A stretch of 64,000 bases of DNA from Terriglobus tenax. GTDB taxonomy: Bacteria > Acidobacteriota > Terriglobia > Terriglobales > Acidobacteriaceae. The position numbers and the translations under genes were made by a program. Below are positions 1,401 to 62,794 of this stretch, one piece after another (positions within the stretch are counted from its first letter, which is position 1; each line of letters begins with the position of its first letter). Location: assembly GCF_025685395.1 (NCBI RefSeq), contig NZ_JAGSYA010000004.1, forward strand, positions 1,178,001-1,242,000, written 5' to 3'. The notes below the pieces were generated by a model. It was not told the origin of the DNA. It did not search any database and saw nothing but the letters and a program-made list of their open reading frames with translations.

Positions 1401-4400
1401 TTACGGCACACGCAGCGGACGGAAGCCCTCAAACGGGAACAGGCCCGTCGGATACTCTTCGCTCGGCACCTGCGGCTTGAACAGGTAGCGGAAGAAGAAA
1501 CCGCCCGTGATGGTATTGAAGTTACTCGTATTGTTGCCGGTCAGAATGCCACCCACATACCAGTGGTCGGCAATGCGGTAGCTCATCTCGGAGTTCAGCG
1601 AGTAGTTCAGGCCCGTGCCCGTGTTCACCGGATACTCACCGCAGGTATGCGCCGCAATGGAGGGCAGCGTGCAACCCGAGTACGCTCCCGTCTGCAGCGA
1701 AACGTCCAGCGGATAGTACTTGGCGTAAGCCTCCTGGAACGTCTGAATACCGACTGCGCCGGCGATGGAGTAATGCCAGCTCGTGCCATAGTGGCCATTG
1801 AAGGTCACCGGCACCGCTCCCAGGAAGTACGCGTTCGGGCTGAAGTAGCCACCCATGCCGTACGTCATGTTGCGCTGGTTGTTGTCGTAGTGCGTTCCAT
1901 AGAAGCTGGCGCCAATATTCAGGCTGCCGTAACCGGGAATGTACTTGGCTAGCCAGTACGCACCGACTGAGCCTTCAAAGCGCTTGTTATCCAGCACGTG
2001 ATAGCCGGTCACCGACGCTCCGGACACGCTGGCATAGAAGCCCGCGCGCTCATTGCCGAAGTCCAGGCGCGCGCCGCCACCGGTCGATATCACACCGCCC
2101 CAGATGTTCCCCGCGAAGACCGGCGTCACCGACCCAGGGTCGCGCATACCGGCATAGGAGAGCTGCGTGTCCTTCACATTGTCGCGGTCGGCAAAGAACA
2201 TGACATGCCCGCCAAACGGACGCCAGCGCGCGTGACCAATCACATTGGTCACCAGGAACTCATACGGCGTAAAGCCGATCGACAACGCCGCGTTGGTCGT
2301 CACCAGCTGCACCTCGCCGCCCAGGCCAGAGGTCAGCTGCTGCGACGGAGTGTTCACCGCATTCAACGGCAGTGTGCCCAGAATCGGCACGGTGCCTTCC
2401 GTTCCCTGGTAAGAGGCGGTATCCAGCGTGCCCGCGTTCAAAAAGACAGCCTTGGGAATAATGCTCAGGCGCAGTGTCTTATTCGCCACCAGGGTCGCCT
2501 CCATCGGCGCCTCCAGGTCGAACAGCCGGTTCATACCGGAGATGCCGCTGCGATAACGCATCAGAGCCGTCGCACCCATCCACGATGAGTAGCTTGCCTC
2601 CAGCGAAGCCAGGTCCAGCTCCGTCTGCTGGCGCTCACTCATCGGTGGCCCCGGAGTCAGTGCCGCGTTGCGATCCCATCCGCCACGCAGCGGAGGAACA
2701 TTCTTCGCCACCAGCATCGGATCGCTGGGCGGATTTTGCAGCGGATATGCCGGTCCTAAATCGGGATACGGCTGGCCGCTCAGGGCCACCGGAACACCGG
2801 GGTAGAACAGCGGCGCCGACTGCGGCCCGGAGGAAACACCCTCGACTGAGCGGCTGCGCACCGTGCGGCGGCGCGGTGTTGTCGCCGTCGGACGGCGCGC
2901 CGGCTGCGGGTACTGCTGACCATAGGTCTCAGCGCCGGCGCTCTGCTGCGCCAGGTCACCACGATACTGGTAGCCGGGCTGTGTCTGCGTTGCCTGGATC
3001 GAACCGGAGGCATTGGCGCGCGACTGCGGGATCTGGCTCTGTGCCGGGTTGTATGGCTGGCCGGTGTACTGCGTCTCCGTCAACGGAGCAACATCAACCG
3101 GCTCGGGCTGAATCGGATGGCTGGAACCCACCAGTGGCTTCGGATCGGACTGGCGACGGCGTACGGATGCAGCCTGGGCCGCAGCAATATCAGGATGCGA
3201 TGAGGTCGACGGAACACGACCCGTGCGCTTCGCGTTCGGCACATACGCCGCCGTCGGAATCACATCCGTCGGCTCCTGCATCTTCGGATGGATCGGCTGC
3301 AGGTCCGAACCAAGATCGACGCGCGAGGCCTGTGCCATATAAGCCGCATTCTGCGTGATCGTGTTCTGCGGGTTATACGGGACATACGGCCCATAGGTAT
3401 CGCCGCCTGCCTGCTGCGCGGGAGGCCCGTACGCATTCATTGGTCCGGCAGAGTTCACGGCTCGCTGCGTCAGCTGGCGGATCTGCTCCCGCTGATACGC
3501 CATATAGTCATTGGAATCGACCGGGTTGCCATTGGTATCGGTCTGCGGAAATGCCGGCAGGGCGCTCTGCGCTGCCGCGGTCGATGGCGGCTGCTGTCCC
3601 AGCAGCTCATACGCCGGATTCGTCTGCGACTGCGGCACATAATCCTTCAGCCGCGTCGCTCCCTGCCGCGCCGGAACTCGCTGCTGGTAAGCAGGGTTCG
3701 TCATGTATGACGGCACCAGGTTGTTGTTCTGATAGGCCGCACCGTTGCCCTGCAACTGCACCGGCGCATTGCCGTACTGGTTCGAATAGCTGGGCAGGTA
3801 CGGCGGCGGAGCCGGAACAGCAAACTGCTGCTGTCCTGCAAGAGCGGCGCTATCGGTGCCAGGAGCCATCAGGGCGGCAAGATCCTGCGCCTGCGTCGCG
3901 TTCGGCAGACGTCCGCCGTTCTGAGACGCCATGCTCAGTTCAGCCGCAAGCTCCGCACCGGGGTCTCCCGGAGGCATCGCCTGCAGGCTCGCCTTGTAAT
4001 AATCGGCGGCGCGCCCGCTGTCTCCACGGGCCTGCTCAAACTTCGCCGCCAGAATCATCATCTGCGCGTCTTTCGGATACTGGTCCAGACCATAACGCAG
4101 CCATAACTCGGCATTCTTCGTATCGTTGGCAGCCAGGGCAGCGCCAATCGCCGCCTTGTAATCCGTCGCCGAGGCCGTGGTCATATCCTGCGACCGGAAG
4201 ATCGCAACCGCCTGCTTCGGCTGTCCAGCGCGGGCATATCCCGTGGCCAACGCGCGAATCACCGCCGGGTTATCCGGGAAGGCTTTGGCCGCTGCATTCA
4301 GGATCGCCAGACCGCGGCGAACATTGTTCGCGGCCACCGCCTGGTTGGCACGGCGCACCGCCCAGTTCGCCCAGATGGTCTGGACCGTGCGGCGCTGCTC

Positions 4401-6728
4401 CTCGCTCAGGTCGTTGCGGCTGCCAATCATCATCAACTGGCGGTACAGGCCCGAATCGTTTTGCGCGTTATATAGCAACCACGCATCCTGAATGTCGATG
4501 TCGGCCGGAGGAGTCGCGTTCTGTCTCGCATAGTGCTGCTGCACGCGCTGCAGAAAGACCATTGCCTGCTGCGGCTGCCCAAGCCCGCCATAGATACCAC
4601 CCACCGTCTGCAGATAATCCGGATCCTGCTCAAGTTGCTTGCGAATCGGCGCGGGAATCTGCTGAACCTGAGCCAGCGCCTCCTGGTCATGACCACTGGA
4701 GTGCAGCGCCGTCAGCAGACCCTTCCAGCTATCCAACCGATCCGGATTGTCCATCAGTACCTGGCGGTAAATCGCATAAGCCTGCTGGGAGTTGCCGCGC
4801 TTCATGTAAATGCTGGCCAGCTCTGTCTGCATGCCGGCCGCGGGCTTTTGCCCTGCCATGGTCGACTGCGAAACCGCCTTCTCCAGCATGTCCTGCGCCA
4901 CGTCCAGCTTGTTCTGCGTGTCGTAGATCGAAGCCACCGTGCTCACAAAGCCGGGATCGCGCAATGCCTGGTCATAGGCCGAAGGCGGCATGCTCTCCAG
5001 CGTCTGCTCGGCCAGGGCATCGTTCTTCATCGCATGCTCAACCCGGACAAGTCCCTGCCACGCAGCAACGTTCGCCGCATCCTCGCCCAGCACCTGGCGA
5101 TACAGGCCGGCGGCCTGGTCCATGTGATTGCTGGCCAGCAGCAGGCTGGCATACTGCAGCTGCGTCTCAACTTTTACGCCACGCCCATCGGCGGGAAAAG
5201 GGAGCTCGAGGGCTCCCTTCAACACACGCTGCGCATCTGCGTCCCGGCCCACGGCTGAATACGCCGAGGCCAGAGTTCGTAAGAAGTCCGGGTCTCGCAT
5301 CAGCTGCGATCGGACCCCCGCCGGCATTCGTCGCTCTGTCGCCAGCGCCATCGCGGCATTGCCCGCCTGATACTGCGCCGTAAACAGACCACGCCAGCCC
5401 GTAATTCCGGTACCGCGAAGCTTGATGTACTGCTCGTAATACGGAGCCGCGGCCTCAGGCTGCTGCGCTTTCATCAGCGTTCCAGCCAGCCCCTCCAGGG
5501 CCTCCGGGCTGCTGGGCTTCATTGCCAGCGCCGAGCGGAACTCCTTCTCGGCCGTCGTCAGATCGTTCTCGTTCAGGGCCGTTGTGCCCTCGCCCATCGT
5601 GTACCAGAAGCGCGAGGTCGACAGAGCGTTCTCAAGTCCCGCATCACGCGCGCCGTCCTGCTTGGCCTGCTCCAGGAAGCTGATCGCTCCGCCGAAGTTC
5701 GACTGCTGCATGCGGATATATCCCATGCCCGCCAGGGCACGCGCATTGTCCGGGTTCTTGCCAAGCAGCGCCTTGAAGCGCTCTTCGGCTTCGGCCAGAC
5801 GCTTGCCGTTCAGAGCGCTATAGGCGGCCTGCTCCTCCTGGCTGATCGCACGATTGGCGACAATCTCCTGCTGCTCCTCCGGAGTCATCACCGGCGCCTG
5901 GGCCGCTGCTGCGCGGGATCCCGCCCTTGTCGAAGCAGCGACACGCGCCTGCGTGCTCTTCATCGCGGCTTCCAGCGCAGGATCTTTATGCTTTGCCAGG
6001 TACGCACGAATGTCCGCCATGGCCGCAGGATTCTGTGCATCCCATGTCAGCGACTGGCGCAATGCTTCCTGCGCCGCAGGATCGTTCGGATGGCGCTCCA
6101 GGTAACGGCGGCCTTCCGGGCGTGTCGCCGGATTGTAGGTCAGGATGCGGCCCAGCGTGATCTGGTAACGCGAGTCCTGAGGATACCTGTCAATCAGCGA
6201 GCGAAGTCCGGCGATGGCATGAGGACGTCCATCCTCGGTTGCCGACTCGGTCTCGTAATACGCCAGCGCCCAGTCACCCGCCGGCGGAGTTCCGCCAAAT
6301 ACCTGGCGGTAAATATTCATGGCCTGCGCGTACTGCCCGCTCTGCGCCAGTTTGCCGGCCTGCTGCAACTGCGCAAGCTGGTTTTGCTGGGTCATCATGT
6401 TCTCGGCGCGCTCAATGCCAGGGTCGTTCGGGTTGATCGCCTTCAGGCGGTTCAGGTACATCGTCGCCTGCTGCTGGTTGCCCGCAAGCCGTGCCGCGCG
6501 CGCCAGTCCACCCAGCGCCTCGGTATTGTTCGGATCCGCCAGCAGGACCTGCTGCCAGGTCTGCGCAGCCATATCCATGCGTCCGCGCACCTCAAGCGAA
6601 TGTGCCTTGTCCAGCAGTGCCGATGTCGTCGATGAATTGCCCTGCGCATAGCCCGCAGGCACGCTCAGCATCAAGGCGCAAAGCGCCAGGCTGGCGGTCA
6701 TCGTCCGGATTGAAAGCAGTCTCTTCAT
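1401..6728 (-). CDS. bcsC: BcsC-type cellulose synthase outer-membrane subunit (TPR scaffold plus beta-barrel)
   Basis: A 1775-aa exported protein. The ATG at 6728 is chosen over an upstream in-frame GTG-type start because it begins a clean signal peptide (MKRLLSIRTMT..., cut after GYAQ). From about residue 20 to 1000 it is a run of TPR motifs. Next comes a Pro/Gln/Tyr-rich low-complexity linker of roughly 350 residues, then a C-terminal beta-barrel of about 330 residues ending in aromatic-rich strands typical of the BcsC domain. In characterised systems BcsC forms the outer-membrane exit channel for cellulose, with the TPRs spanning the periplasm. Canonical BcsC is about 1150-1300 aa, so this one is long, mostly through extra TPRs and the linker. 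It is the last gene of the bcs operon, 193 bp after bcsZ. Confidence 0.93.
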   Translation of the reverse strand: MKRLLSIRTMTASLALCALMLSVPAGYAQGNSSTTSALLDKAHSLEVRGRMDMAAQTWQQVLLADPNNTEALGGLARAARLAGNQQQATMYLNRLKAINPNDPGIERAENMMTQQNQLAQLQQAGKLAQSGQYAQAMNIYRQVFGGTPPAGDWALAYYETESATEDGRPHAIAGLRSLIDRYPQDSRYQITLGRILTYNPATRPEGRRYLERHPNDPAAQEALRQSLTWDAQNPAAMADIRAYLAKHKDPALEAAMKSTQARVAASTRAGSRAAAAQAPVMTPEEQQEIVANRAISQEEQAAYSALNGKRLAEAEERFKALLGKNPDNARALAGMGYIRMQQSNFGGAISFLEQAKQDGARDAGLENALSTSRFWYTMGEGTTALNENDLTTAEKEFRSALAMKPSSPEALEGLAGTLMKAQQPEAAAPYYEQYIKLRGTGITGWRGLFTAQYQAGNAAMALATERRMPAGVRSQLMRDPDFLRTLASAYSAVGRDADAQRVLKGALELPFPADGRGVKVETQLQYASLLLASNHMDQAAGLYRQVLGEDAANVAAWQGLVRVEHAMKNDALAEQTLESMPPSAYDQALRDPGFVSTVASIYDTQNKLDVAQDMLEKAVSQSTMAGQKPAAGMQTELASIYMKRGNSQQAYAIYRQVLMDNPDRLDSWKGLLTALHSSGHDQEALAQVQQIPAPIRKQLEQDPDYLQTVGGIYGGLGQPQQAMVFLQRVQQHYARQNATPPADIDIQDAWLLYNAQNDSGLYRQLMMIGSRNDLSEEQRRTVQTIWANWAVRRANQAVAANNVRRGLAILNAAAKAFPDNPAVIRALATGYARAGQPKQAVAIFRSQDMTTASATDYKAAIGAALAANDTKNAELWLRYGLDQYPKDAQMMILAAKFEQARGDSGRAADYYKASLQAMPPGDPGAELAAELSMASQNGGRLPNATQAQDLAALMAPGTDSAALAGQQQFAVPAPPPYLPSYSNQYGNAPVQLQGNGAAYQNNNLVPSYMTNPAYQQRVPARQGATRLKDYVPQSQTNPAYELLGQQPPSTAAAQSALPAFPQTDTNGNPVDSNDYMAYQREQIRQLTQRAVNSAGPMNAYGPPAQQAGGDTYGPYVPYNPQNTITQNAAYMAQASRVDLGSDLQPIHPKMQEPTDVIPTAAYVPNAKRTGRVPSTSSHPDIAAAQAASVRRRQSDPKPLVGSSHPIQPEPVDVAPLTETQYTGQPYNPAQSQIPQSRANASGSIQATQTQPGYQYRGDLAQQSAGAETYGQQYPQPARRPTATTPRRRTVRSRSVEGVSSGPQSAPLFYPGVPVALSGQPYPDLGPAYPLQNPPSDPMLVAKNVPPLRGGWDRNAALTPGPPMSERQQTELDLASLEASYSSWMGATALMRYRSGISGMNRLFDLEAPMEATLVANKTLRLSIIPKAVFLNAGTLDTASYQGTEGTVPILGTLPLNAVNTPSQQLTSGLGGEVQLVTTNAALSIGFTPYEFLVTNVIGHARWRPFGGHVMFFADRDNVKDTQLSYAGMRDPGSVTPVFAGNIWGGVISTGGGARLDFGNERAGFYASVSGASVTGYHVLDNKRFEGSVGAYWLAKYIPGYGSLNIGASFYGTHYDNNQRNMTYGMGGYFSPNAYFLGAVPVTFNGHYGTSWHYSIAGAVGIQTFQEAYAKYYPLDVSLQTGAYSGCTLPSIAAHTCGEYPVNTGTGLNYSLNSEMSYRIADHWYVGGILTGNNTSNFNTITGGFFFRYLFKPQVPSEEYPTGLFPFEGFRPLRVP

Positions 6729-6921: not shown

Positions 6922-8091
6922 TTACTTCCACTTCAACTTCAACCGGCCATCTCGATCCAATCGAAAACGCTGTTCCTGCCACCCAGTGGCAAACATCGCC
7001 AGGTTCTGGTCGTAATACTCGCCACTGCGGCCATACAAACCAGTCGCAGGATCCTTCAACGCCGTCACACGGTCCATCTGCGACTTCGCCTGCTGCTTCA
7101 ATCCCACCAGTTGCAGGTACGGCGCCAGTGCCGCCGAAAACCCAACCGGGGCCTCCGTATTCAGCACCTTCCCCGAGGAGTCCACCTGCAGCGGTGGCGC
7201 CAGGTTCGTGCGCATGTAGTTCGTCATGCCGCCCAGCGGAGCCACCATCTCCCGCAGCCCCTGCGTTCCCGGATCGCTGATACCCAGCCACAGGTACACC
7301 CGGATGGCGTCATAGCTGCCCATCGGAATGCCTTCGTTCTTGCCCGTGGCAAGCTGCGCCGGCGTCAGCGATGGCCGAACACCGGTCGATCCGGCAAGCA
7401 CCCAGTCCATGGCGAACCCGCCTCCACTGCCTCGCGCCAGCATCTGCGGCAACGAGTCCAGAACCGTGCCCCACGGTCCCTGCGGCATCTCCTTGGCCAG
7501 TCGCACCAGAATAAATGGCGGCAGGTAACTTGGGTTCAGCACATAAGTCGATGGCTCCGGATGAAATCCCTGCGGTCCGGGCATAATCGACGTTCCCAGC
7601 CCAGGCACCAGCACCACTTCGCTCTGCGCAATGCGGTAGGCCATCACCGTTCCGAGCTTCGCATAGCGATCGTCCCGCCAGATGCGACCGGCCTCCAGCA
7701 GCGTGTACGCCATCCAGAGATCGGCATCGGAAGCCGGATGCTGATCCAGGACACCCCACTGGCCCTCCGGCGACTTGCCCCAGTTCCACGCCGGCAGACG
7801 CAGCGTCATATCGCCGCCCGCCAGGTTATCCTCAGTCCACTTCAACAGCTTGTCGAAACGGACACGGTCCCCGGCCACCAGCGCGAAGAACATGCCATAG
7901 GCCTGCCCTTCGCTCGTGGTGCGGTCCTCAGCACTGTGGTCGATCACACGGCCCTGCGGGTCCATGAACTTGACCGTGTACTTTTCCCACAGGTCCCATG
8001 TCTGCTCTGCGCGGCAGCCCTGGTTGAACCACACCGCCAGCGTGATCAGCAGCGCGCACGCGCTTGCCCGCCTTGTCGTTCTCCACCGCAT
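6922..8091 (-). CDS. bcsZ: BcsZ endo-1,4-beta-glucanase (GH8)
   Basis: 389 aa with an N-terminal hydrophobic signal (about residues 8-27). The GH8 signature is clear. The general acid is E61 in TTSEGQAYGM, followed by WNWGKSPEGQW and HPASDADLW (D122, D124). The predicted base is D261 in SYDAIRVYLW, matching Asp243 of the E. coli enzyme. It cleaves cellulose in the periplasm and is required for proper export in characterised bcs systems. It starts 15 bp after the bcsAB stop, so the two are surely cotranscribed. The length is slightly above the usual 350-370 aa. Confidence 0.95.
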   Translation of the reverse strand: MRWRTTRRASACALLITLAVWFNQGCRAEQTWDLWEKYTVKFMDPQGRVIDHSAEDRTTSEGQAYGMFFALVAGDRVRFDKLLKWTEDNLAGGDMTLRLPAWNWGKSPEGQWGVLDQHPASDADLWMAYTLLEAGRIWRDDRYAKLGTVMAYRIAQSEVVLVPGLGTSIMPGPQGFHPEPSTYVLNPSYLPPFILVRLAKEMPQGPWGTVLDSLPQMLARGSGGGFAMDWVLAGSTGVRPSLTPAQLATGKNEGIPMGSYDAIRVYLWLGISDPGTQGLREMVAPLGGMTNYMRTNLAPPLQVDSSGKVLNTEAPVGFSAALAPYLQLVGLKQQAKSQMDRVTALKDPATGLYGRSGEYYDQNLAMFATGWQEQRFRLDRDGRLKLKWK

Positions 8092-14999: not shown

Positions 15000-15075
15000 G
15001 AGAGCGTAGCTCAGTTGGTAGAGCATCGCCCTTTTAAGGCGCTGGTCCTGGGTTCGAGCCCCAGCGCTCTCACCA
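15000..15075 (+). tRNA. tRNA-Lys (anticodon TTT)
   Basis: A full cloverleaf is present: acceptor GAGAGCG/CGCTCTC, D-arm GCTC...GAGC, anticodon loop CTTTTAA (TTT), T-arm CTGGG-TTCGAGC-CCCAG, discriminator A and genomically encoded CCA (15073-15075). The anticodon stem has four Watson-Crick pairs plus a T/C mismatch at its top. It stands alone between the bcs operon and the heptose operon. Confidence 0.97.
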
Positions 15076-29467: not shown

Positions 29468-29818
29468 TGGTGGAGGCGGTGGGAGTCGAACCCACGTCCG
29501 AAATCACGGCCGGGAGAGAGCTTTCATGCTTTTTCCGATTCTATAGTCTCGTTTCGAGCGCTTAGAACGGACGAAGATACGCTCGAAACCAGCCTGTGGA
29601 TCTCGTCCACCCTGCCCAGGCGAAGCAGGGAAGACCAGACTACTGTGCGACGATCGGTACAGGCCCGTAGGCGAAGCCTGAGCGATCGGCTACTTAGTTA
29701 ATTAAGCAGCAAGCGCGAATTGAGGTTCGGCACTTATAGTTTTGTGAGCGATTACGGGTGTCCACACTCCGGCATGCCTCTCTACCGCACGCAATCCCGT
29801 CGAAACTGTGACGCCCCA
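29468..29818 (-). ncRNA. ssrA: Transfer-messenger RNA (tmRNA)
   Basis: The 3' end carries a tRNA-like T-arm (CGTGGG-TTCGACT-CCCACG type) and encoded CCA at 29468-29470. The 5' end shows GGGGCGTCAC followed by GTTTCGACGGG, the conserved tmRNA start. The resume frame reads AEPQFALAA followed by TAA, ending in the ALAA degron expected for ClpXP. Pseudoknot-like pairs lie between. Length is about 350 nt. It rescues stalled ribosomes with SmpB. The exact 5' base is uncertain by one. Confidence 0.95.
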
Positions 29819-55055: not shown

Positions 55056-56873
55056 CTAGCGGTAGCTTGCGGCCTGCATCTCAAACATCTCAGCGTAGAG
55101 ACCTCCGGCCTCCATCAGTTTCTGGTGATTGCCCTCTTCGATCAGGCGGCCGCCGCTCAGCACCACAATGCGGTCGGCCATGCGGACGGTGGAGAAGCGG
55201 TGCGAGATCAGAAGCGCCATCTTGCCCTGTGTCAGTTCCGCGAAACGCTCAAAGACCTCAAGCTCGCTGCGTGCATCCAGCGCCGCCGTCGGCTCATCGA
55301 GGATCAGCAGCTGGGCATCGCGCAGATACGCACGCGCCAGTGCAATGCGCTGCCATTCGCCGCCGGAAAGCTCAACACCGCCCTCGAAGCGACGACCCAG
55401 AATCTGGTCATAGCCATGCTCCAGCTTGGCAACGACCGAGTCCGCAAGGCTCTTGTTCGCGGCGTACTCAATCTCACCCTGCTGCAGCTCACGGTCCACG
55501 CGGCCTACGCCGATGTTCTCACGCGCTGTCATCTCATAGCGCATGAAGTCCTGGAAGATGACACCAATCTCGTGGTGCAGCTCTTCCAGCTTGTACTCGC
55601 GCAGGTCGCGGCCATCCAGCAGAATCTGCCCTTCGGTCGGATCGTAGAGACGTGTGATCAGCTTGACGATGGTCGTCTTGCCCTGCCCGTTCTCGCCAAT
55701 CAGCGCTACCCGTTCCCCAGGGCTCAGCGTGAAGGTAAAGTTCTTCAGCACCGTGCGATTGGTGCCCGGATAGGTGAACGAAACGTTGCGGAACTCGAAG
55801 CCGGTGCGGATAGGCCGCGGAGCCGGCAGGCCCTTGGGGTCGGAGCGAACCGTCGGCTCCATCTTGAAGAACTCGATCAGGTCCGTAAGGAACAGCGCCT
55901 GGTCCGCGATACCGGAGGCAGTGGAGAAGACCTGCTGCAGGTTTGAGTTTGCCTGCTGGATCGACGCCGTAAGGAAGGTGAAATAGCCGATCGAGTAATC
56001 ACCGTGGATCGTCCGCCAGATAACGTAGACATACGCTCCGTAGTAACCCAGGGTGCTGACAATATTCAAAAGACCACCCACTACCAGCTTCTTCCGCGCA
56101 AAGGCCGTGTCTTCCACGTAGATGCCGCGTGCCAGCACATCAAACTTCTTCGTGAAGTACTGGCTCAGTCCAAAGAGCTTGATCTCTTTGGCGCCATCGC
56201 GGCTGCCTGCCACCTGCCGCAGATAATCCATCTGCCGCTTGGCGGGTGTCTGGCGGAAGTTCTTCGCGTAGCCCAGGAAGGCAAAGTGCGTTTCGCCTAG
56301 GAACGACGGCAAAACACCCACCAGCATCAGCAGAACCAGCCACGGCGAAGCCAGCACCAGTGCGGCGGAAAAGACAATGGTCGTGATGACCTGCTGCAAC
56401 AGGCGGCCCATCTGCTGGATCATCACCAGCCGGTCGGTGGCCTGCACGCGGGCACGCTCCAGCCGGTCATAGAAGATGGGATTTTCATAGGTGGTCAGGT
56501 CAAGCCGCGCGGCCTGCTCCATCACCTTTACGGAAGCGTAATGGGTATAGCTGTTAGCCAGTAGCGCATCGCTGTAATCGATGGCACGCATCATCAGGCC
56601 GAGCAGCACATTGATGCCAATCTCAGCTGCAACCAGATGCCAGAAGCGGGCTTCCAGCGGCTTGCCGCGCAGCGAATCGGCAATGTCATTGATGATGTAC
56701 TGCACCACCTTCGCGGCGGCAAACGGCAGAACAGCCACGATCAGGCGAAGGAACACGCCCCATAGGACAGCCGCACGGCTGGACTTCCACATGATGCCGA
56801 GCACCAGCGGAACATTGCGCAATGCCGTGACGCGTTCGCGCCAGGGATTCTGGTTGGTGGTCGTCTCGCTCAT
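55056..56873 (-). CDS. ABC exporter (fused TMD-NBD), candidate glucan exporter
   Basis: 605 aa from ATG 56873 (MSETTTNQNPW); an upstream in-frame extension to 57185 has poor coding character. Six helices in an exporter TMD (about residues 25-320) are followed by an ABC domain with Walker A GENGQGKTT, signature LSGGEWQR and Walker B LLILDEPTAALD. It heads a two-gene operon with the glucan-synthase-like gene, the same functional pair as NdvA/ChvA with NdvB/ChvB, so glucan export is the likely role. Family-level similarity alone would not separate it from other ABCB-type exporters. Confidence 0.85.
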   Translation of the reverse strand: MSETTTNQNPWRERVTALRNVPLVLGIMWKSSRAAVLWGVFLRLIVAVLPFAAAKVVQYIINDIADSLRGKPLEARFWHLVAAEIGINVLLGLMMRAIDYSDALLANSYTHYASVKVMEQAARLDLTTYENPIFYDRLERARVQATDRLVMIQQMGRLLQQVITTIVFSAALVLASPWLVLLMLVGVLPSFLGETHFAFLGYAKNFRQTPAKRQMDYLRQVAGSRDGAKEIKLFGLSQYFTKKFDVLARGIYVEDTAFARKKLVVGGLLNIVSTLGYYGAYVYVIWRTIHGDYSIGYFTFLTASIQQANSNLQQVFSTASGIADQALFLTDLIEFFKMEPTVRSDPKGLPAPRPIRTGFEFRNVSFTYPGTNRTVLKNFTFTLSPGERVALIGENGQGKTTIVKLITRLYDPTEGQILLDGRDLREYKLEELHHEIGVIFQDFMRYEMTARENIGVGRVDRELQQGEIEYAANKSLADSVVAKLEHGYDQILGRRFEGGVELSGGEWQRIALARAYLRDAQLLILDEPTAALDARSELEVFERFAELTQGKMALLISHRFSTVRMADRIVVLSGGRLIEEGNHQKLMEAGGLYAEMFEMQAASYR

Positions 56874-57187
56874 CCACACTCGATCCGGGGTTAAAACTGC
56901 AATCAAAACAATAGGCGGACGCGGAAGACCACACACGCCACACGGGGACCTTCTCTTTAGGATGCACAGACTTGCCAGAGAGGTTGTGCACCCCGGAGGT
57001 CTCTGAATTTGCAGGTGTCCGTAGTGCAGGATGCTCCAACAGGGCAACTGGTCGCACCGCAAAAATACGATCGGAACTCTTCCGCTGCTTTGTTTCTCGT
57101 TTCGCGCAGGCGCTATGAAGTCGTAGCCGGAAGGATCTGCCACGGGATGACAAACAAAGGAGGGAACGCTCCGGGCGTGGCGCAAAA
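56874..57187. other. Divergent intergenic region between the ABC exporter and the Ro60 locus
   Basis: No gene is supported. It must hold the leftward promoter of the exporter operon. GAGGTTGTGCACC and GGAGGTCTC segments are present but no clear promoter pair is read. Confidence 0.4.
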
Positions 57188-57229
57188 TCTAACTTATTTC
57201 ACTTATTTTTACTTGCAATAAGAGTTAGA
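57188..57229 (+). promoter_or_regulatory. AT-rich dyad at the head of the Ro60 locus
   Basis: TCTAACTTATT (57188-57198) is mirrored by AATAAGAGTTAGA (57217-57229), an imperfect dyad with two extra bases, in an AT-rich gap unlike its GC-rich surroundings. TTGCAA at 57213-57218 could be a -35 element, but the matching -10 is poor. It is probably an operator or promoter for the rightward Ro60 transcript. Confidence 0.35.
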
Positions 57230-57273
57230 CCTGTGGCATTCTCACTCAGTAGTTAGCCCAGAGGATGACTCCC

Positions 57274-57384
57274 ATGTTGCACCTGATCCAACTCGACACG
57301 CAGAGCACGCCGTATCCACGGCTGGCGAATGTGTGCGTGCAGGCAGGCGACTGGTTTACGGGCCTCGACTTCTCTTTCGCCTAA
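57274..57384 (+). CDS. Possible 36-aa leader peptide of the Ro60 locus
   Basis: ATG 57274 has AGAGG 9 bp upstream (ATG 57265 is directly adjacent to it and less likely). It encodes a 36-aa peptide, MLHLIQLDTQSTPYPRLANV and onward, ending DFSFA. No family. It precedes the tRNA-like array and could simply be a chance frame or a translated leader. Confidence 0.3.
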   Translation: MLHLIQLDTQSTPYPRLANVCVQAGDWFTGLDFSFA

Positions 57385-57462
57385 GCACTCCGGCTCATCT
57401 GGGCGGCCGGATCACAGGCTAAGATCCTCAGCACACAATCGTTCTCACGCTCTTTCTGTATC

Positions 57463-57538
57463 GCTTCGGTGGCGCAGCCTCCGGATACTTCGACTGTCAC
57501 TCGATCCTATGTGGCCGGAGCACCTCTTCCCCGAAGCA
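57463..57538 (+). ncRNA. tRNA-like unit 1: acceptor stem and Asp-type anticodon arm
   Basis: Outer stem GCTTCGG (57463-57469) pairs perfectly with CCGAAGC (57531-57537), with A at the discriminator position: 76 nt, tRNA length. An anticodon-like arm TCGA-CTGTCAC-TCGA has the canonical loop of tRNA-Asp (GTC). The D side (GCGCAGCCTCC) and the T side lack normal arms, and no TTC T-loop is present, so it could not be a standard tRNA. Confidence 0.5.
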
Positions 57539-57567
57539 GTATAGAAAGCACCGCGCCAGTGGTGCAG

Positions 57568-57632
57568 TTCAGGGATACTTCATCGGTTGAATCTCCTTCA
57601 GGAGTAGCGGTTCGAATCCGCAAGCCCCTGAG
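57568..57632 (+). ncRNA. tRNA-like unit 2: D- and T-arms with a mini-hairpin in place of the anticodon arm
   Basis: Outer stem TTCAGGG (57568-57574) pairs with CCCTGAG (57626-57632; first pair U-G). Inside are a D-like hairpin TTCA-TCGGT-TGAA with GG in the loop, a four-base loop hairpin CTCC-TTCA-GGAG, and the T-arm GCGG-TTCGAAT-CCGC. A short hairpin where the anticodon arm should be is what is described for the tRNA-like module of the Ro60-bound Y RNA YrlA. Confidence 0.5.
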
Positions 57633-57641
57633 CGATCTCTT

Positions 57642-57713
57642 CCCTGGCACGTGTGGGAATGGGAGTACGGCAGGCAGTAGCGCAGGTTCGGGTTCCTTCT
57701 TCCACCGCCAGGG
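57642..57713 (+). ncRNA. tRNA-like unit 3: 7-bp outer stem with T-loop-like hairpin
   Basis: CCCTGGC (57642-57648) pairs perfectly with GCCAGGG (57707-57713), 72 nt apart end to end. Inside, GTGG(G)AA near 57653 pairs with TTCCAC near 57700 through one bulge, and AGG-TTCGGGTT-CCT forms a T-arm-like hairpin. A UUCG hairpin (57738-57753) lies just downstream. Confidence 0.4.
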
Positions 57714-57795
57714 CGGGGATAACCAGGAGGCCCGCCGCACGGATTCGTCCGTGTTAACAGATACCCGCGCCGTTTGTTCTCTGCCTGCCATGCTC

Positions 57796-57876
57796 CCGGC
57801 TTTACGGTGGCGATGAGATGGGTTCCTTCGGAACAGCGCGTCACAGGTTCGAATCCTGTCACGGCCCAAAAGCCGG
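57796..57876 (+). ncRNA. tRNA-like unit 4: 8-bp outer stem, perfect T-arm, mini-hairpin
   Basis: CCGGCTTT (57796-57803) pairs perfectly with AAAGCCGG (57869-57876). Inside are a five-pair mini-hairpin GTTCC-TTC-GGAAC (57822-57834) and a full T-arm ACAGG-TTCGAAT-CCTGT (57843-57859). As in unit 2, the mini-hairpin precedes the T-arm. The 3' strand of the outer stem overlaps the start of an adjoining 5' half-tRNA (GCCGGTGTAGCTC... with perfect D-arm), so alternative pairings are possible. Confidence 0.45.
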
Positions 57877-57982
57877 TGTAGCTCAGATGGAAGAGCGGCT
57901 GTCATATATACCTGTCTCGAATTATTCCCCGTGGAGTTACCTCCCACTTACTCACCGCGGATAACTTCCGCTTTAGAAAGTG

Positions 57983-58306
57983 ATGTCTATGAGCTCGACG
58001 ATTACCATTCGCAACGCGACGCCCAAGGGCAACCAGTCGCTGTGCGATACCTGCTCCTCTGCGCACATCCAGACCGGATTTGCGGACAGCGAGCGTCTTG
58101 TGCGCTGCATGGAAAGCTGGAGTGCGCCCTTTGAGGTGCCATTCCCCGTGCGCGATTGCAGCAACTACAGCAACCGGACACTGCCTGACCTTACGAAGAT
58201 GGAAAAAATCGCGTGGGAGCTGAACTTCCGCCGTTCCACCCACCCGCTTGGCTTCACCACGAAGGCAGTATTTTCGCCGCCCAAACCTGAGGAGGACGAC
58301 GACTAA
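57983..58306 (+). CDS. Small four-cysteine protein of the Ro60 locus
   Basis: 107 aa from ATG 57983 (ATG 57989 also possible); GAAAG lies just upstream. Cys residues C21 and C24 (CDTC), C42 and C59, plus H28, are spaced as in a small zinc-binding site. The C-terminus is Pro-rich and acidic (PPKPEEDDD). No family is recognised. It lies between the tRNA-like array and the TROVE gene, 97 bp before the latter, and is probably cotranscribed. A role as an RNA- or Ro60-binding partner is inference. Confidence 0.6.
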   Translation: MSMSSTITIRNATPKGNQSLCDTCSSAHIQTGFADSERLVRCMESWSAPFEVPFPVRDCSNYSNRTLPDLTKMEKIAWELNFRRSTHPLGFTTKAVFSPPKPEEDDD

Positions 58307-58403
58307 GTCGATCCCTTTGTGGGCGGCCAACGATAGCGCCGCCCTTGTTCCTCCGGGCTGGCAGCGCTTGCTCCCTGGCCCGGAGAAACAAGGAGGTGCC
58401 GTC

Positions 58404-59753
58404 ATGGCACAACTGAACATCCTGAAATTGAGCGGATTCATCCGCCGCACGCTGCCGCTGAGCGCTCCGCGCACGTATGAGGGGGCGCCGGCCGCAACTC
58501 TTACTCCGGAGCAGGCTTTGCGCCGCTCAGTCATGGCCTGCATGCTGTGGGAGGAAACCTTCTACGAGCAGGGCGAGAGCGCAGCCGCACGCATCGCCGC
58601 GCTGGTTCCGCAGGTGAAGGCAAACACGGTCGCCGCGCTTGCCGTAGAGGCGCGCGAGCGTATGAAGCTGCGCCATGTTCCACTGCTGCTGGTGCGTGAG
58701 ATGGCGCGTTATCCGTCACATCGCGCCCTGGTAGCCGAGACGCTGGAGCGCGTGATCCAGCGTGCGGACGAGTTGAGCGAGTTCGTCGCCATTTACTGGA
58801 AGGACGGGCGCCGTCCGCTGTCGGCACAGGTGAAGAAGGGGCTGGCTGCTGCGTTCGTGAAGTTCGACGGCTATGCGCTGGCCAAGTATGACCGCGCGAA
58901 GACGGTGCGTCTGCGTGACGTGCTCTTTCTATCGCATGCGAAGCCGCGTACGGCGGAACAGGCCGCGCTGTGGAAGCAGCTGATCGATGGTGAACTGCCG
59001 ACGCCGGCGACGTGGGAGGTCCGTATCTCCGCAGCTGGAGCGGATGCGGAGAGCAAGCGTGAGGCGTGGTCTTCGCTTCTGCTGGAGAAGCGTCTGGGTG
59101 CGCTGGCACTGCTGCGCAACCTGCGGAACCTGGAGCAGGCAGGTGTGGAGCGTGGTCTGATTGCGGAGTCACTGGCTGCAATGAAGACCGAGCGTGTGCT
59201 TCCCTTCCGCTTCCTGGCTGCGGCGCGTCATGCTCCGCAGTGGGAGCCGGGGCTGGAGTCGGCCATGTTCCAGAGCATTGCCGGTGCTGAGCGGCTGAAG
59301 GGCCGGACCGTCATGCTGGTGGACGTCTCCGGTTCGATGGATGCCGCGATGAGCGTCCGTTCGCAGATGCTGCGGCTGGATGCAGCCTGCGGTCTGGCCG
59401 TGCTGCTGCGCGAGCTGGCGGATGAGGTAGTGGTGTACACCTTCTCCTCCGGCCTGGTGAAGGTACCGCCGCGCCGTGGCTTTGCTCTGCGCGATGCCAT
59501 CGTTCACAGCCAGCCGCACCAGAGCACGATGCTGGGCTTCGCTCTGGAACGGCTGCGGGAGCGCTATGACCGGCTGATCGTGATCACCGACGAACAGTCG
59601 CACGACCATGTACCTGAACCCGCGGGCAAGGGGTACATGATCAATGTCGCCAGCTACCACAATGGCGTTGGCTATGGTGCATGGACGCACATCGACGGCT
59701 TCTCGGAGTCGATCGTCGAGTACATCCGCTCATCAGAGGCCGTGATGCCATAG
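58404..59753 (+). CDS. Ro60-family TROVE-domain RNA-binding protein
   Basis: 449 aa. ATG 58404 has a perfect AAGGAGG at 7 bp. The first 290 residues are the helical-repeat TROVE ring, including RLRDVLFLSHAKP and other repeat signatures. The C-terminal von Willebrand A domain has an intact MIDAS, DVSGSMD (D307, S309, S311), a later Thr (STMLGF) and TDEQSHD. In known Ro60, misfolded RNAs thread the ring and Y RNAs bind its outer face and regulate access. The neighbouring tRNA-like array fits a Y-RNA role. Deinococcus Rsr and Salmonella Rsr are the characterised bacterial relatives. No rtcB or PNPase gene is in the window. Confidence 0.95.
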   Translation: MAQLNILKLSGFIRRTLPLSAPRTYEGAPAATLTPEQALRRSVMACMLWEETFYEQGESAAARIAALVPQVKANTVAALAVEARERMKLRHVPLLLVREMARYPSHRALVAETLERVIQRADELSEFVAIYWKDGRRPLSAQVKKGLAAAFVKFDGYALAKYDRAKTVRLRDVLFLSHAKPRTAEQAALWKQLIDGELPTPATWEVRISAAGADAESKREAWSSLLLEKRLGALALLRNLRNLEQAGVERGLIAESLAAMKTERVLPFRFLAAARHAPQWEPGLESAMFQSIAGAERLKGRTVMLVDVSGSMDAAMSVRSQMLRLDAACGLAVLLRELADEVVVYTFSSGLVKVPPRRGFALRDAIVHSQPHQSTMLGFALERLRERYDRLIVITDEQSHDHVPEPAGKGYMINVASYHNGVGYGAWTHIDGFSESIVEYIRSSEAVMP

Positions 59754-59757
59754 AACA

Positions 59758-59790
59758 CCGGGGAGTGCCGCCAAGCGGGGCACTCCCCGG
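59758..59790. terminator. 12-bp hairpin terminator between convergent genes
   Basis: CCGGGGAGTGCC (59758-59769) and GGCACTCCCCGG (59779-59790) form a perfect stem, followed by TTTATC. It lies between the TROVE stop and the converging OmpA-like stop. Confidence 0.75.
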
Positions 59791-59791
59791 T

Positions 59792-60472
59792 TTATCGCGC
59801 TACTCTTCGGGGCTGCGGCTTCACTTTCTTTTCATCCACAGGAACCGCACCGGCGGAGGTATCAAGAGCCGCTCCTGCGGGCAGCACATACATCTGCACC
59901 ACGGGCCGGTCTCCAGGCTGCTGCATGACAAGAATGCGGGCGGAATCAATCCCCTTGTCTTCGACCAGATAGGCCTTCGCATTCACGGCACGCTGCGATG
60001 CCAACTGGCTTCCCTTGATGCCGGGCAGGTTGACGACCCCGGTTATGACGAGCCGGAAGCTGGCCTCGCGTGCGAGGCTGAGCGCGGCCTCGTCGAGGCA
60101 GGCCAGCGCCTCATTGCCCACCCGGACCGGGCGCTTCTTGTCCCGGTCAAACGGAAGGGTGCATAAGGGCCGCGACGCAGGAGGAGGAGACGGCGGAGCG
60201 CTGACCGCGAGATACACCTTCTCCGGAACGGATTTTCCGGCGCAGAATGCCTGCACAAGAATCTGTCCTGGCGGGCTGCCTGCGCTGTCGAGCACAGCCT
60301 GAGCTCCGGAAGAGCTAATATTTCCGGAAGTTGTAGTCCATGCCTGAACTGGGTTACAAGTACATACAATCTGCACACGATCCCCCGGAAACAGCGTTGT
60401 TTGCGTCGCAAAACACGCACTATTCCCCTGCATAGGAGCTGCCGTCATGAGCATTAACAAGGCTGCTAACAC
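59792..60472 (-). CDS. OmpA-like C-terminal domain protein
   Basis: 226 aa from GTG 60472, which has GGAGG 4-5 bp upstream and gives a short hydrophobic N-terminus (MLAALLMLMTAA); starts at ATG 60448 or 60433 would shorten or remove it. The C-terminal 110 residues resemble an OmpA peptidoglycan-binding domain (LPFDRDKKRPV, LDEAALSLAREA, SQRAVNAKAYLVEDKGID, RI). A Pro-rich linker precedes it. The start codon lies 25 bp inside the divergent neighbouring gene. Confidence 0.7.
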   Translation of the reverse strand: MLAALLMLMTAAPMQGNSACFATQTTLFPGDRVQIVCTCNPVQAWTTTSGNISSSGAQAVLDSAGSPPGQILVQAFCAGKSVPEKVYLAVSAPPSPPPASRPLCTLPFDRDKKRPVRVGNEALACLDEAALSLAREASFRLVITGVVNLPGIKGSQLASQRAVNAKAYLVEDKGIDSARILVMQQPGDRPVVQMYVLPAGAALDTSAGAVPVDEKKVKPQPRRVAR

Positions 60473-61727
60473 TCCGCCTCCGTCTCGCCGTCTCCGGTCG
60501 TCATCTCTGGCTGTATTGTTGCTGCTGCTTTATCTCCTGCCCGCAGCGGTATGTCAAGCGGTTACGCCTGAGGCGAAAACAAAGCCTGATGAGTGCAGGC
60601 TCGTCCTGGCGCATCCAGGAACGACTGTTTTCGGGCAGCCCGCGCTGGAGAAGCTGCTGACCGACGATCATGCCGACGGATTCTTTCGCGATGCAATCTT
60701 CTATCGCTGCACCCTTACATCCAGCCCCGCACTAAATCTGGAGCATGCCAGCTTCGTCAATGTACAGGCTCCGTCGATTCTTTTTGCGCCAGATACCAAC
60801 CTGAAGAATGCGGTTTTCACGGACTCCAACCTCCGGGGTGCGACGTTCAACTTTGTGACGCTGAAAGGCGCCCGGTTTACCGGAAGCAGAATGGACCTGG
60901 AAGGTGCATCCTTTGAGGCCGCAGACCTCACTGAGGCGATCATCGATGGAGCCGACCTGAAAGATGCCGACTTTATCGCCGCCCGTATGATACGCGTGGA
61001 ATTTCACCCATCCAAGCTGCCGGATATCCAGAACATGGCAGGTGCGATTAATCTTCAAACGCTGGGTGGCCACCGCGGCTTTGACGCGTTGCAGAACCTG
61101 AAGGAAGCCTTCCGGTCACAGCATTTTGACAGCAAAATGCGCGACGTCGGGTTTGCGCTGCAACGAGCCTATCAGCGTTACTACAGCTACCAGTGCCGCA
61201 CCGGCTTGCAGATTGAGCAACAGAAATTTACGGACTATCCGCTTCCCCGGCGGGTCAACGCCTGCTTCCTGTTCGGCGTGCGTGCGATTGCCCTGGATGC
61301 GACATCGCAGTTCGGCAGACGCCCGTGGCGCCCTATCGGCCTTGTCTTTCTGTTGGGAACTGTCTGGTGGGTCGTGCTGTGCGGATGGCTTCCATCGGCA
61401 CAAAAGGGCGTCATGTTCAGTTTCAAAACGCTGGCCGGCGCAACACGCACGGTTCCTTTGCGGCTCATCATCCGGCGCAGCTATGCGTCAGGCCGACGTC
61501 TGCCCGGCAACATGAAATACGCCATGGCACTGGTGGTTGCAGCCATCTTCAATATGCCATTTCAGCAGATTGAGGTCAGCAAGTGGCTTCGCATGGTCAG
61601 CCGTCGCGAGTATGAGTTCCAGACGCGCGGCAGCATACGCACATTTTTAGGAATCCTCACACTCCTGTCGTTCTACCTGTTTACGCTATGGGCACTCAAC
61701 TTCCTGACCGGAGCTTTAACCGGCTGA
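60447..61727 (+). CDS. Pentapeptide-repeat protein with C-terminal membrane helices
   Basis: 426 aa. ATG 60447 has AGGAG 8 bp upstream. A signal or anchor (about residues 19-37) is followed by pentapeptide repeats (about 100-170: A-x-L/F pattern such as LKNAVF, LRGATF, LKGARF, LEGASF, LTEAII, LKDADF). A helical region follows, then two or three membrane helices (PIGLVFLLGTVWWVVLC; ILTLLSFYLFTLWALNFL). Function is unknown; pentapeptide solenoids serve as protein-interaction scaffolds. It overlaps the divergent OmpA-like start by 26 bp. Confidence 0.82.
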   Translation: MSINKAANTPPPSRRLRSSSLAVLLLLLYLLPAAVCQAVTPEAKTKPDECRLVLAHPGTTVFGQPALEKLLTDDHADGFFRDAIFYRCTLTSSPALNLEHASFVNVQAPSILFAPDTNLKNAVFTDSNLRGATFNFVTLKGARFTGSRMDLEGASFEAADLTEAIIDGADLKDADFIAARMIRVEFHPSKLPDIQNMAGAINLQTLGGHRGFDALQNLKEAFRSQHFDSKMRDVGFALQRAYQRYYSYQCRTGLQIEQQKFTDYPLPRRVNACFLFGVRAIALDATSQFGRRPWRPIGLVFLLGTVWWVVLCGWLPSAQKGVMFSFKTLAGATRTVPLRLIIRRSYASGRRLPGNMKYAMALVVAAIFNMPFQQIEVSKWLRMVSRREYEFQTRGSIRTFLGILTLLSFYLFTLWALNFLTGALTG

Positions 61728-61789
61728 GCCCCACGGCGGCAGGGGTATCGTGAAGGGAGAGTCTTCAACCCCACAGGAGGCCCCTACTT

Positions 61790-62794
61790 GTGAAGACGAT
61801 CGGCGTTCTCTTCGGCATGGAAAACACCTTCCCCGGCGCGCTGGTGGAAAACATCAACGCGCGCGGCCTGGACGGCATCCGGGCGGAGTTTGTACAGACC
61901 GGCGGTGTGGAGATGGCCTCTCCTTCTGGCTACGACGTGATCGTCGACCGCATCTCGCACGATGTGCCGTTTTATCGCAGCTACCTGAAGAACGCCGCGC
62001 TCAACGGAACGGTGGTCATCAACAATCCCTTCTGGTGGTCGGCCGACGATAAGTTCTTCAACTATGCTTTGGCCGCCAAACTGGGTGTCGCCGTCCCACG
62101 CACGGTGTTGCTGCCCAGCAAGGAGCTGCCGCCCAATACGACGGAACGATCCATGCGCAACCTGGAGTATCCGCTCGACTGGGACGCGGTCTTCAGCTAC
62201 GTCGGTTTCCCGGCCTTCTTTAAACCGCATGACGGCGGCGGATGGCGGGATGTGCATCACGTTCACAACGCGGAAGAGTTTTTCCACGCCTACGATCAGA
62301 CACGGGACCTGTGCATGGTGCTGCAGGAAGCGGTGCACTTCAAGGAGTACTTTCGCTGCTATGTTGTCGGCCAGCAGAAGGTCCACATCATGCCCTATGA
62401 CCCTCGGCGGCCGCACCACGAGCGCTATATGCAGGACGGGCCGCCGGTTTCGAAAGCATTGCTCAAACGCGTGGAGAAAGATGCCATCACGTTATGCAAA
62501 GCGCTTGGCTATGACCTGAACACGGTGGAGTTCGCCTGCGAGAACGGCGTACCGTATGCCATCGATTTCATGAACCCTGCGCCGGACGCTGACCTGCACT
62601 CGGTGGGCAAAGCAAACTTCGACTGGATTGTGAACGCCGTTGCTGACCTGGCCATTGCAAAATGCAAGACGGGCAAAAAGCCGTCAGAATGGAAGTGGGA
62701 CGCAATGCTGGGAGCACTTCCCGCGGCCAGGCCGGCGACGAAGGCTCCGGCGAAGAAGGCAGTGAAGAAAGCTGCGGTCCCAAAGAAAGGTTGA
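61790..62794 (+). CDS. ATP-grasp-domain protein (RimK-like)
   Basis: 334 aa from GTG 61790 with AGGAGG 9 bp upstream. An N-terminal pre-ATP-grasp domain (IGVLFGMENTFPGALVE) precedes the ATP-grasp with AFFKPHDGGGW and HFKEYFRCYVVG, ending in FACENGVPYAIDFMNPAPDAD, where the metal-binding Glu/Asn normally sit. A Lys/Ala tail (APAKKAVKKAAVPKKG) could bind nucleic acid or a carrier. It is followed at 3 bp by a DUF6572 gene and then a YbdK-like ligase, an arrangement suggesting a small-peptide or amide-forming pathway. Confidence 0.8.
   Translation: MKTIGVLFGMENTFPGALVENINARGLDGIRAEFVQTGGVEMASPSGYDVIVDRISHDVPFYRSYLKNAALNGTVVINNPFWWSADDKFFNYALAAKLGVAVPRTVLLPSKELPPNTTERSMRNLEYPLDWDAVFSYVGFPAFFKPHDGGGWRDVHHVHNAEEFFHAYDQTRDLCMVLQEAVHFKEYFRCYVVGQQKVHIMPYDPRRPHHERYMQDGPPVSKALLKRVEKDAITLCKALGYDLNTVEFACENGVPYAIDFMNPAPDADLHSVGKANFDWIVNAVADLAIAKCKTGKKPSEWKWDAMLGALPAARPATKAPAKKAVKKAAVPKKG

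Follow-up and report, generated by a model that had tools for sequence, protein, structure and literature searches.

The locus described here lies in a 64,000-nucleotide (nt) stretch of the Terriglobus tenax genome (contig NZ_JAGSYA010000004.1, positions 1,178,001 to 1,242,000 of the forward strand), which we call the window and number from its first letter. On this strand a gene for a Ro60 (TROVE) protein follows a gene for a small four-cysteine protein, and both are preceded by a non-coding array that a small open reading frame (ORF) opens at its 5' end (Table 1). Comparison with related loci shows four separate predicted RNA units in this array, U1 to U4, on the coding strand, each with the same covarying basal stem and each with a different insert. 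The best explanation, in our judgement probably the right one, is that the locus forms a Ro60 operon and that its 5' part encodes four Y RNAs in tandem, with adaptor inserts. A reading made earlier from the sequence alone (the sequence-only reading) had proposed four stem-closed units of tRNA size, two TTCGAAT T-loops, a D-arm, an Asp-type anticodon loop, a 36-residue ORF, a 107-residue protein with four cysteines and a TROVE gene. All of these were located, the T-loops in U2 and U4, the D-arm in U4, the anticodon loop in U1 and the cysteines at C21, C24, C42 and C59. The gaps between successive units are 17, 20 and 9 nt.

Table 1. Features of the Ro60 locus, in window coordinates
Feature	Position	Strand	Details and evidence
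AT-rich dyad, imperfect	57193-57222	.	9-nt arms, 89% complementary; 5' of the small ORF
Small ORF, 36 residues	57274-57384	+	opens the array at its 5' end
Extended outer stem around U1	57453-57547	+	9 further pairs; whole-stretch minimum-energy and centroid folds
Unit 1 (U1): basal stem and putative anticodon-arm mimic	57463-57537	+	finder, alignment, R1 and R2 models
Putative anticodon-arm mimic of U1	loop 57494-57500, triplet GTC 57496-57498	+	CGA-CTGTCAC-TCG; Asp-type loop
Unit 2 (U2): basal stem, hairpin and T-arm	57555-57648	+	TTCGAAT T-loop from 57611; finder, R1
Unit 3 (U3): basal stem and several hairpins	57669-57789	+	finder, R2, covariation, folding z -3.59
Unit 4 (U4): YrlA-like, permuted T-arm, acceptor hairpin and D-arm	57799-57937	+	TTCGAAT T-loop from 57848; D-arm GCTC...GAGC; Rfam, R2, alignment
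Four-Cys protein, 107 residues, acidic tail	57983-58306	+	alignment of 21 sequences
Ro60/TROVE protein, 449 residues	58404-59753	+	Pfam, PHROG, structure match
Perfect 13-bp hairpin, likely terminator, weak T-tract	59757-59791	+	inverted-repeat search

By sequence and predicted structure the window's TROVE protein is a genuine Ro60. It matches the TROVE family (PF05731) at 42.2 bits against a cut-off of 23 (E 7.8e-11); vWA_Ro60 (PF25045) reaches 20.6 bits, under its cut-off of 27.7, and no NCBIfam model matches. With an AlphaFold2 model of the protein (predicted local distance difference test score, pLDDT, 84.5), the best 13 matches of a fold search in the PDB were all TROVE/Ro60 proteins, led by 9kop and the Ro60 of Thermus phage phiLo and including the human and Deinococcus radiodurans proteins. 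Residues D307, S309 and S311 (DxSxS) of the vWA domain, which we take to be the metal-ion-dependent adhesion site (MIDAS) motif, are invariant in 17 Ro60 proteins. By sequence the protein lies near the phage-type Ro60: PHROG 850 matches it with E 3e-50, and homologues from Brevundimonas, Xanthomonas and Caulobacter phages are 52-58% identical to it. Used as query, it retrieved 24 loci in named genomes, 20 of them acidobacterial (Terriglobia metagenome-assembled genomes and Granulicella among them) and four from Bradyrhizobium.

Upstream of the TROVE genes of relatives a 5' element recurs, consisting of stem A, T, GG, a YGNAG-like stretch, stem B and TACTTC, together with a 3' element consisting of stem B', a TCGCTTGTTCC-like stretch and stem A'. 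We ran a script (the finder) that demands both elements and both stems over as much as 5 kb of sequence before each of 33 TROVE genes, one of them the window's, and it returned 98 units on the Ro60 strand against one on the reversed and two on the reverse-complemented sequence; four of the 98 were judged false by eye. Seven finder units were named false by eye, four of them within counted loci (L023 at -3469, L042 at -416, L044 at -3724 and L106 at -3078), and the L027 unit at -896 is two units merged. Loci L028, L012 and L147 are one and the same contig, which entered the counts a single time, and L015 (G055) is without upstream sequence. Because the finder itself selects for pairing, stem A was re-tested with anchors picked by sequence alone: 313 of 370 cells paired, where swapping partners among the units gave 238.6 ± 6.6, and pairing at all five positions was seen in 51 of 74 units, against a mean of 11.8 and a maximum of 22 in 2000 swaps. 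The predicted basal stem common to all four units, conserved and covarying, with an unpaired U and an internal loop, resembles the Ro60-binding stem of Y RNAs; the likeness was judged by eye against the vertebrate stem, which excerpts of PMC4726728 describe as a 7-bp helix with a bulged C and a 3-nt bulge.

Covariation in relatives, to which the sequence-only reading had looked, was found in every unit type. The aligned units came from the finder, with a few ends set by hand, which biases the counts in favour of the basal stem; the finder made no demand on the inner helices, namely the anticodon, T, acceptor and U3 hairpins. The covariation score was 0.487 for the U1 type (0.177 shuffled; 23 sequences), 0.356 for the permuted-tRNA type described below (0.160; 17 sequences), 0.336 for the YrlA type (0.151; 13 sequences) and 0.409 for the U3 type (0.174; 16 sequences), and none of 500 shuffles reached it in any of the four; by the count of pair types, a further measure, the YrlA value was reached in one of 500 shuffles. 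Sliding the partner by one to three columns lowered the score from 0.34-0.49 to 0.04-0.13. Among 17 U2-type units, 11 of the 16 predicted pairs have changes on both sides.

Two covariance models were used to detect units: R2, built from the 17 permuted-tRNA units with no window sequence, and R1, the mini-unit model, built from U1-type units including the window's U1. R2 found U4 at 67.0 bits (E 3.5e-15 over the 64 kb), U3 at 33.9 bits (E 8.6e-7) and U1 at 29.0 bits (E 1.5e-5), and R1 found U1 at 56.4 bits and U2 at 23.5 bits (E 4.9e-4), the E-values of both models being rough.

The inserts are for the most part pieces of tRNA. The U1-type insert is a hairpin of 3 bp closing a 7-nt loop (in most cases CUNNNAA or CUNNNAC) at the place of an anticodon arm. 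With units of all types set in that register, 29 of 96 pair, against one to nine at twelve other offsets and 11.3 ± 2.8 (maximum 20) with the arms swapped; C32 and U33 are each found in 24 of these 29, four of which appear to hold the register by accident. Across the U1-type alignments 88.4% of cells keep the three anticodon-arm pairs, two of which show both-sided change; the minimum-energy fold of U1 lacks the small hairpin in this exact register, and the hairpin is drawn from comparison. The U2-type insert is a T-arm and a hairpin, so that among T-arm, acceptor hairpin and D-arm it has the T-arm alone; U4 has all three, in permuted order, and U1 and U3 have none. The Rfam model of YrlA (RF02553) aligned with U4 over its whole length at 33.8 bits (E 9.6e-5), the gathering threshold of 69 not being reached. 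It gave no match for U1 to U3 up to E 5, and these match no Rfam family; matches to mir-557 and three other Rfam families were taken as chance. On seven related loci Rfam gave no YrlA match at cut-off and called two units tRNA (L135:3819-3886 and L107:6311-6368). On these alignments U1 would mimic an anticodon arm and U2 a T-arm, and U4 alone is YrlA-like.

In 17 loci one unit adds an anticodon arm to the three arms of U4, giving what reads as a complete circularly permuted tRNA opened between the D-arm and the anticodon arm, often as the last unit before the four-Cys gene. A unit that follows the four-Cys gene (L036, L043, L108 and others) resembles, by eye only, a tRNA opened within the D-loop. 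The U3 type has a conserved, covarying multi-hairpin insert, of which the window's U3 is a short, divergent member. Running ARAGORN on rotated units as proof of whole permuted tRNAs was dropped as non-discriminating, because shuffled controls still give tRNA calls: with the upstream part shuffled, 23 of 30 units were still called tRNA in 20 of 20 controls and the other seven in 18, 11, 9, 5, 0, 0 and 0 of 20. The fixed-register test and the covariation counts replaced it. The sequence-only reading had offered tRNA-mimic Y RNAs or one concatenated RNA. Several independent units of Y RNA type are supported, because each type has its own covarying stem and because presence, absence and spacing vary between relatives; as a description of every unit, tRNA mimicry proved too broad.

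Arrays also stand beside close Ro60 homologues in other acidobacteria, in Bradyrhizobium, on a Deinococcus plasmid and in several phages. The acidobacterial counts, which leave out Bradyrhizobium and viral loci, cover 36 loci that have a close TROVE gene with at least some sequence upstream of it, 33 with units and three without (L031, L033 and L048). At least three units occur in 26 of the 36, several loci being cut by contig ends, and six units in three; the mini unit comes first in 19 of the 26. The finder gave four, three, two and no units in the Bradyrhizobium loci L037, L038, L039 and L040. Scans with R1 and R2 covered 35 of the 37 loci L104 to L140 (L131 and L133 left out), with non-overlapping matches combined by eye, and gave eight units in Caulobacter phage CcrColossus (L136), six and five in Brevundimonas phages (L134 and L139), five in a Xanthomonas phage (L135), two on a Deinococcus gobiensis plasmid (L138) and two to five on the viral contigs L126-L130 and L132. 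A Microcystis phage (L137, 44% identity) has two matches, both downstream, and a crAss-like phage (L140, 40% identity) has no full-length match. At distant TROVE loci (13 of L111-L125, two without a BLAST match having been dropped) the finder gave no credible unit and one chance-like match (L124). R2 gave full-length YrlA-like matches in 11 of the 15 loci L111-L125, some not upstream of the gene, L116 having three in tandem and L120, L121, L122 and L124 lacking any; R1, at E up to 0.01, gave one weak match there (L118, 23.0 bits). Multi-unit loci are therefore not exclusive to the window's Ro60 subfamily; mini units mostly are.

In three phages, genes annotated before Ro60 as tRNA-Ser, tRNA-Thr and tRNA-Gln (L134:4769-4843, L135:3819-3886 and L136:4131-4198) sit inside Y-RNA-type units, and the annotations are probably wrong, which suggests that some such phage genes are misnamed Y RNAs. 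Two Brevundimonas phages have a permuted transfer-messenger RNA (tmRNA; RF04321) downstream of Ro60 (L134:8345-8690 and L139:8752-9007), and at L022 two Acido-Lenti-1 RNA matches lie near the array (3276-3322 and 7155-7201), one above cut-off and one just below.

The units go with Ro60 among relatives. TROVE is present in 11 of 101 related genomes, Ro60-negative here meaning no match to the window's protein at E 0.001, and R1 matches 10 of the 11 Ro60-positive genomes against one of 90 negative ones (the latter at 27.7 bits; Fisher p = 6e-12). A pattern search in the same 101 genomes was rejected as too loose, with 71 of 101 matched, its backward control matching in many and the window's own four units failing to fit the pattern. 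Pattern matches within 2 kb of each other on one contig were seen by eye in five genomes (G015, G033, G041, G046 and G049), all Ro60-positive. A TROVE family search found the protein in 23 of 396 genomes of the phylum, missing G137 and G475, in both of which a vWA_Ro60 protein lies beside an R2 match; R2 itself was unusable as a co-occurrence test across these 396, since it matches ordinary tRNAs (393 of 396). What the comparison shows is that selection preserves a docking-like stem from unit to unit as the insert changes, and that this is tied to Ro60.

The anticodon triplet is unusually variable. In the permuted-tRNA alignment (128 columns with few gaps) the two most variable columns are 37 and then 36, both of the anticodon, with column 38 eleventh, and the neighbours C32, U33 and A37 are well kept. 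The triplet differs in all ten pairs of units more than 85% identical elsewhere, pairs that share members (11 loci) and were compared without a tree; in them the triplet positions differ in 19 of 30 cases, where the other unpaired positions do so in 88 of 563, those of the acceptor loop in 11 of 39 and those of the junction that follows the D-arm in 20 of 85. Between the U1 unit and the permuted-tRNA unit of one locus the triplets differ in 13 of 13 loci (one triplet gapped), which is nearly what random triplets would give.

The four-Cys protein has an acidic tail, and its four cysteines are invariant in 21 sequences. It gave only weak, sub-cut-off matches in Pfam and NCBIfam and none in PHROGs, and no solved relative was found. 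Matches to CAMP_factor (Pfam, E 0.085) and zf-CCCH (Pfam, E 0.11) were far below cut-off, unshared and set aside as chance, as were those to a YcgN cysteine cluster (NCBIfam, E 0.014, 15.5 bits against 250) and a carboxypeptidase (NCBIfam). The structure prediction was unusable (pLDDT 45.9) and no fold is claimed. The family occurs in eight of the 11 Ro60-positive relatives and weakly (E 2.9e-7 to 1.6e-4) in three of the 90 others, and only its rarity elsewhere is informative, all eight positive genomes having given rows to the searched alignment. Beside the 15 viral, phage and plasmid loci L126-L140 tblastn found no four-Cys gene. Encoded within the operon, the protein may bind one type of Ro60 particle.

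In 11 of 23 other loci read (L018, L034, L036, L045-L047, L104, L105 and L107-L109) the first unit is preceded, at a distance of 134-174 nt, by the start of an ATG-initiated ORF of 30-34 residues, so that with the window's the lengths run from 30 to 36 residues; in five more an internal in-frame ATG would give an ORF of 30-34 residues (by eye, with no chance control). The window's own peptide matched only its own locus in a tblastn search among the compared loci; several of the relatives' ORFs have an MRRSPE-like stretch that the window's lacks. A TTGNAA-N18-CAYTCT pattern is common to loci before the small ORF, and in some loci the ribosome-binding site of the ORF could pair with a downstream CCTACGC, both noted by eye. 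At the two ends of the locus, the AT-rich dyad of the sequence-only reading is there in imperfect form, and its terminator is a perfect 13-bp inverted repeat followed by a short T-run, a hairpin that the terminator scan did not list. Four neighbouring proteins (55059-62791) were scanned, giving an ABC transporter, a pentapeptide protein and two sub-cut-off matches (OmpA-like and ATP-grasp-like); RtcB and RtcA were not found among these four, genes further out not being covered. ARAGORN found no tRNA gene in the array, its only calls in the window being a tRNA-Lys (15000-15075) and a tmRNA (29468-29818).

We picture the array working as follows. A single transcript starting upstream of the small ORF would likely be processed into individual Y RNAs, the cuts perhaps falling at extended outer stems like the one around U1. 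Each unit is then predicted, with good confidence, to bind the Ro60 ring through its basal stem and to be stabilised by Ro60. More tentatively, and here we are in some doubt, the inserts could serve as adaptors showing different faces of a tRNA and so couple Ro60 to different tRNA-binding or tRNA-processing proteins, a step with a precedent in YrlA and DrY, which couple Ro60 to PNPase. The outcome would be a family of Ro60 particles instead of one.

Several observations weigh against this account. The insert of U3 has no evident tRNA likeness, and the notion of different faces of a tRNA fails for it. The excess stability over shuffled sequence that the sequence-only reading had looked for is present in mild form, with folding z-scores of -1.33 for U1, -1.82 for U2, -3.59 for U3, -1.43 for U4 and -2.18 for the whole array stretch. 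Each of the four units folded alone forms the shared stem; in the 576-nt whole stretch U1 and U3 close in both the centroid and the minimum-energy fold, U4 closes in the centroid alone, and U2 closes in neither. Single-sequence stability is modest; the case for the units rests on comparison and not on energy. A promoter scan over 57000-59900 gave no sigma-70-type promoter, and the finder gave no unit in four of its 33 loci (L031, L033, L040 and L048). Seven R1-positive genomes supplied training units, and without them the association with Ro60 is three of four against one of 90 (p = 1.2e-4). One Ro60-positive genome (G057) has no R1 match, and another genome (G047, L141:5308-6429) has unit-like matches on a contig without a TROVE match in the 11 kb read. 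In a further acidobacterial genome two YrlA-like units (L144:5264-5545) stand directly before an RtcB gene (5663-6703; PF01139, E 7e-117), that genome being unmatched in the TROVE family search, which misses some.

The chief rival takes the units as decoys, that is, as sponges for enzymes that cut or modify tRNA, the changing triplets titrating anticodon nucleases, with Ro60 stabilising the decoys or handing cut ones to repair or decay and with a role in counter-defence in phages. It would explain the changing triplets better than adaptors do: the anticodon columns are the most variable, the triplet changes in every close pair, arrays occur in several phages, and the authors of PMC7790460 suggest, in the part of the paper seen, that the tRNA-like domain of YrlA may competitively inhibit an anticodon nuclease. 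Loop positions may vary merely because they are unconstrained, however; YrlA is described in that same part as not cut by the nuclease (PMC7790460), the difference between triplets within a locus is near chance expectation, and no nuclease gene lies among the four scanned neighbours, so that we regard decoys as unlikely, though worth keeping in view. The position of the units on the coding strand, between the small ORF and the genes, would also suit a structured 5' untranslated region through which Ro60, binding its own mRNA, regulated the four-Cys and trove genes, free Y RNAs being beside the point. Such a region would have no need of tandem units or complete permuted tRNAs, and it fits poorly with L042 and L026, where the array and the four-Cys gene lie 2-4 kb from trove, or with G047, where the unit-like matches are on a contig apart; we find such a leader improbable.

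The short gaps between units and the recurring unit order, with the mini unit so often first, could instead speak for one long non-coding RNA kept whole as a scaffold for several Ro60 rings. Known Y RNAs act as single small RNAs, however, and at other loci the units are widely spaced or have the four-Cys gene between them, and we give a single scaffold RNA little credence. That the array is a decayed tRNA cluster with chance structure is hardly believable and already contradicted: although its T-arms, D-arm and anticodon loop are tRNA-like and ARAGORN and Rfam call a few relatives' units tRNA, ARAGORN finds no tRNA in the array itself, and compensatory change, permuted arm order and a shared basal stem are unexpected of pseudogenes. 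A tandem array of Y RNAs with adaptor inserts remains the reading we prefer. A rather unlikely further reading is that in some Ro60 systems of bacteria and phages the Y RNA repertoire splits tRNA into displayed parts (anticodon arm, T-arm, core, whole permuted tRNA), a triplet that diversifies among close relatives yielding fast-evolving baits for enzymes that cut or handle tRNA in phage-host conflict.

A constant docking stem with a changing insert is a natural experiment on the role of Y RNAs in bacteria. The array tells the Ro60-facing part of the RNA from the partner-facing part, its inserts are ready baits for partners, and with the phage copies the system can be probed in short infections. 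The mimicry known from YrlA would be widened by anticodon-arm mimics and by whole permuted tRNAs. The sequence-only reading expected such an array to be new. Y RNAs beside Ro60 are already known, and arrays are carried by relatives, Bradyrhizobium, a Deinococcus plasmid and phages as well; the features that seem new are how many and how diverse the units are, together with the anticodon-arm mimics and the complete permuted tRNAs. The Y RNA literature, as far as the parts seen go, describes one or two Y RNAs per species. Among the records listed, our literature search showed no description of such arrays; it did not cover the central Y RNA papers.

The closest known RNA is YrlA of Salmonella and Mycobacterium (RF02553), with which U4 shares the basal stem, the permuted T, acceptor and D arms, full-length alignment and a place beside a Ro60 gene. 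YrlA, in the account excerpted from PMC8394870, has D, T and acceptor arms; its basal stem docks onto Rsr and its tRNA-like domain onto PNPase, and tRNA enzymes modify it. The likeness has limits, however: U4 falls well short of the YrlA threshold, U1 to U3 are not YrlA, and where YrlA is described as having only the three arms (PMC8394870, in part), 17 aligned relatives of the present units add an anticodon arm. The Rsr-Y RNA-PNPase complex of D. radiodurans (RYPER), whose protein 2nvo is a fold match of the window's, likewise has an RNA docked on Ro60 by its lower stem; there, as the passages seen of PMC4726728 have it, one Y RNA tethers one nuclease, whereas the window has four unlike inserts. 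The Salmonella operon rsr-yrlBA-rtcBA, presented in part of PMC7790460 as combining Y RNAs, Ro60 and the RtcBA repair enzymes, is similar in pairing Ro60 with more than one Y RNA; the window differs in lacking rtcBA among the scanned neighbours, in its more numerous and more diverse units and in its four-Cys protein. Phage Ro60 proteins (Thermus phage phiLo, PDB 9l5y and 9kop; PHROG 850) give the closest fold and family matches, and the four phage records examined (L134, L135, L136 and L139) hold arrays too, but the window's locus lies on a 3 Mb bacterial contig and includes the four-Cys gene. A comparable arrangement may exist in Listeria phage CKA15, where a putative Rsr is accompanied by three highly transcribed regions, one or more of which, its authors suggest in the part of PMC12282133 seen, may be Y RNAs.

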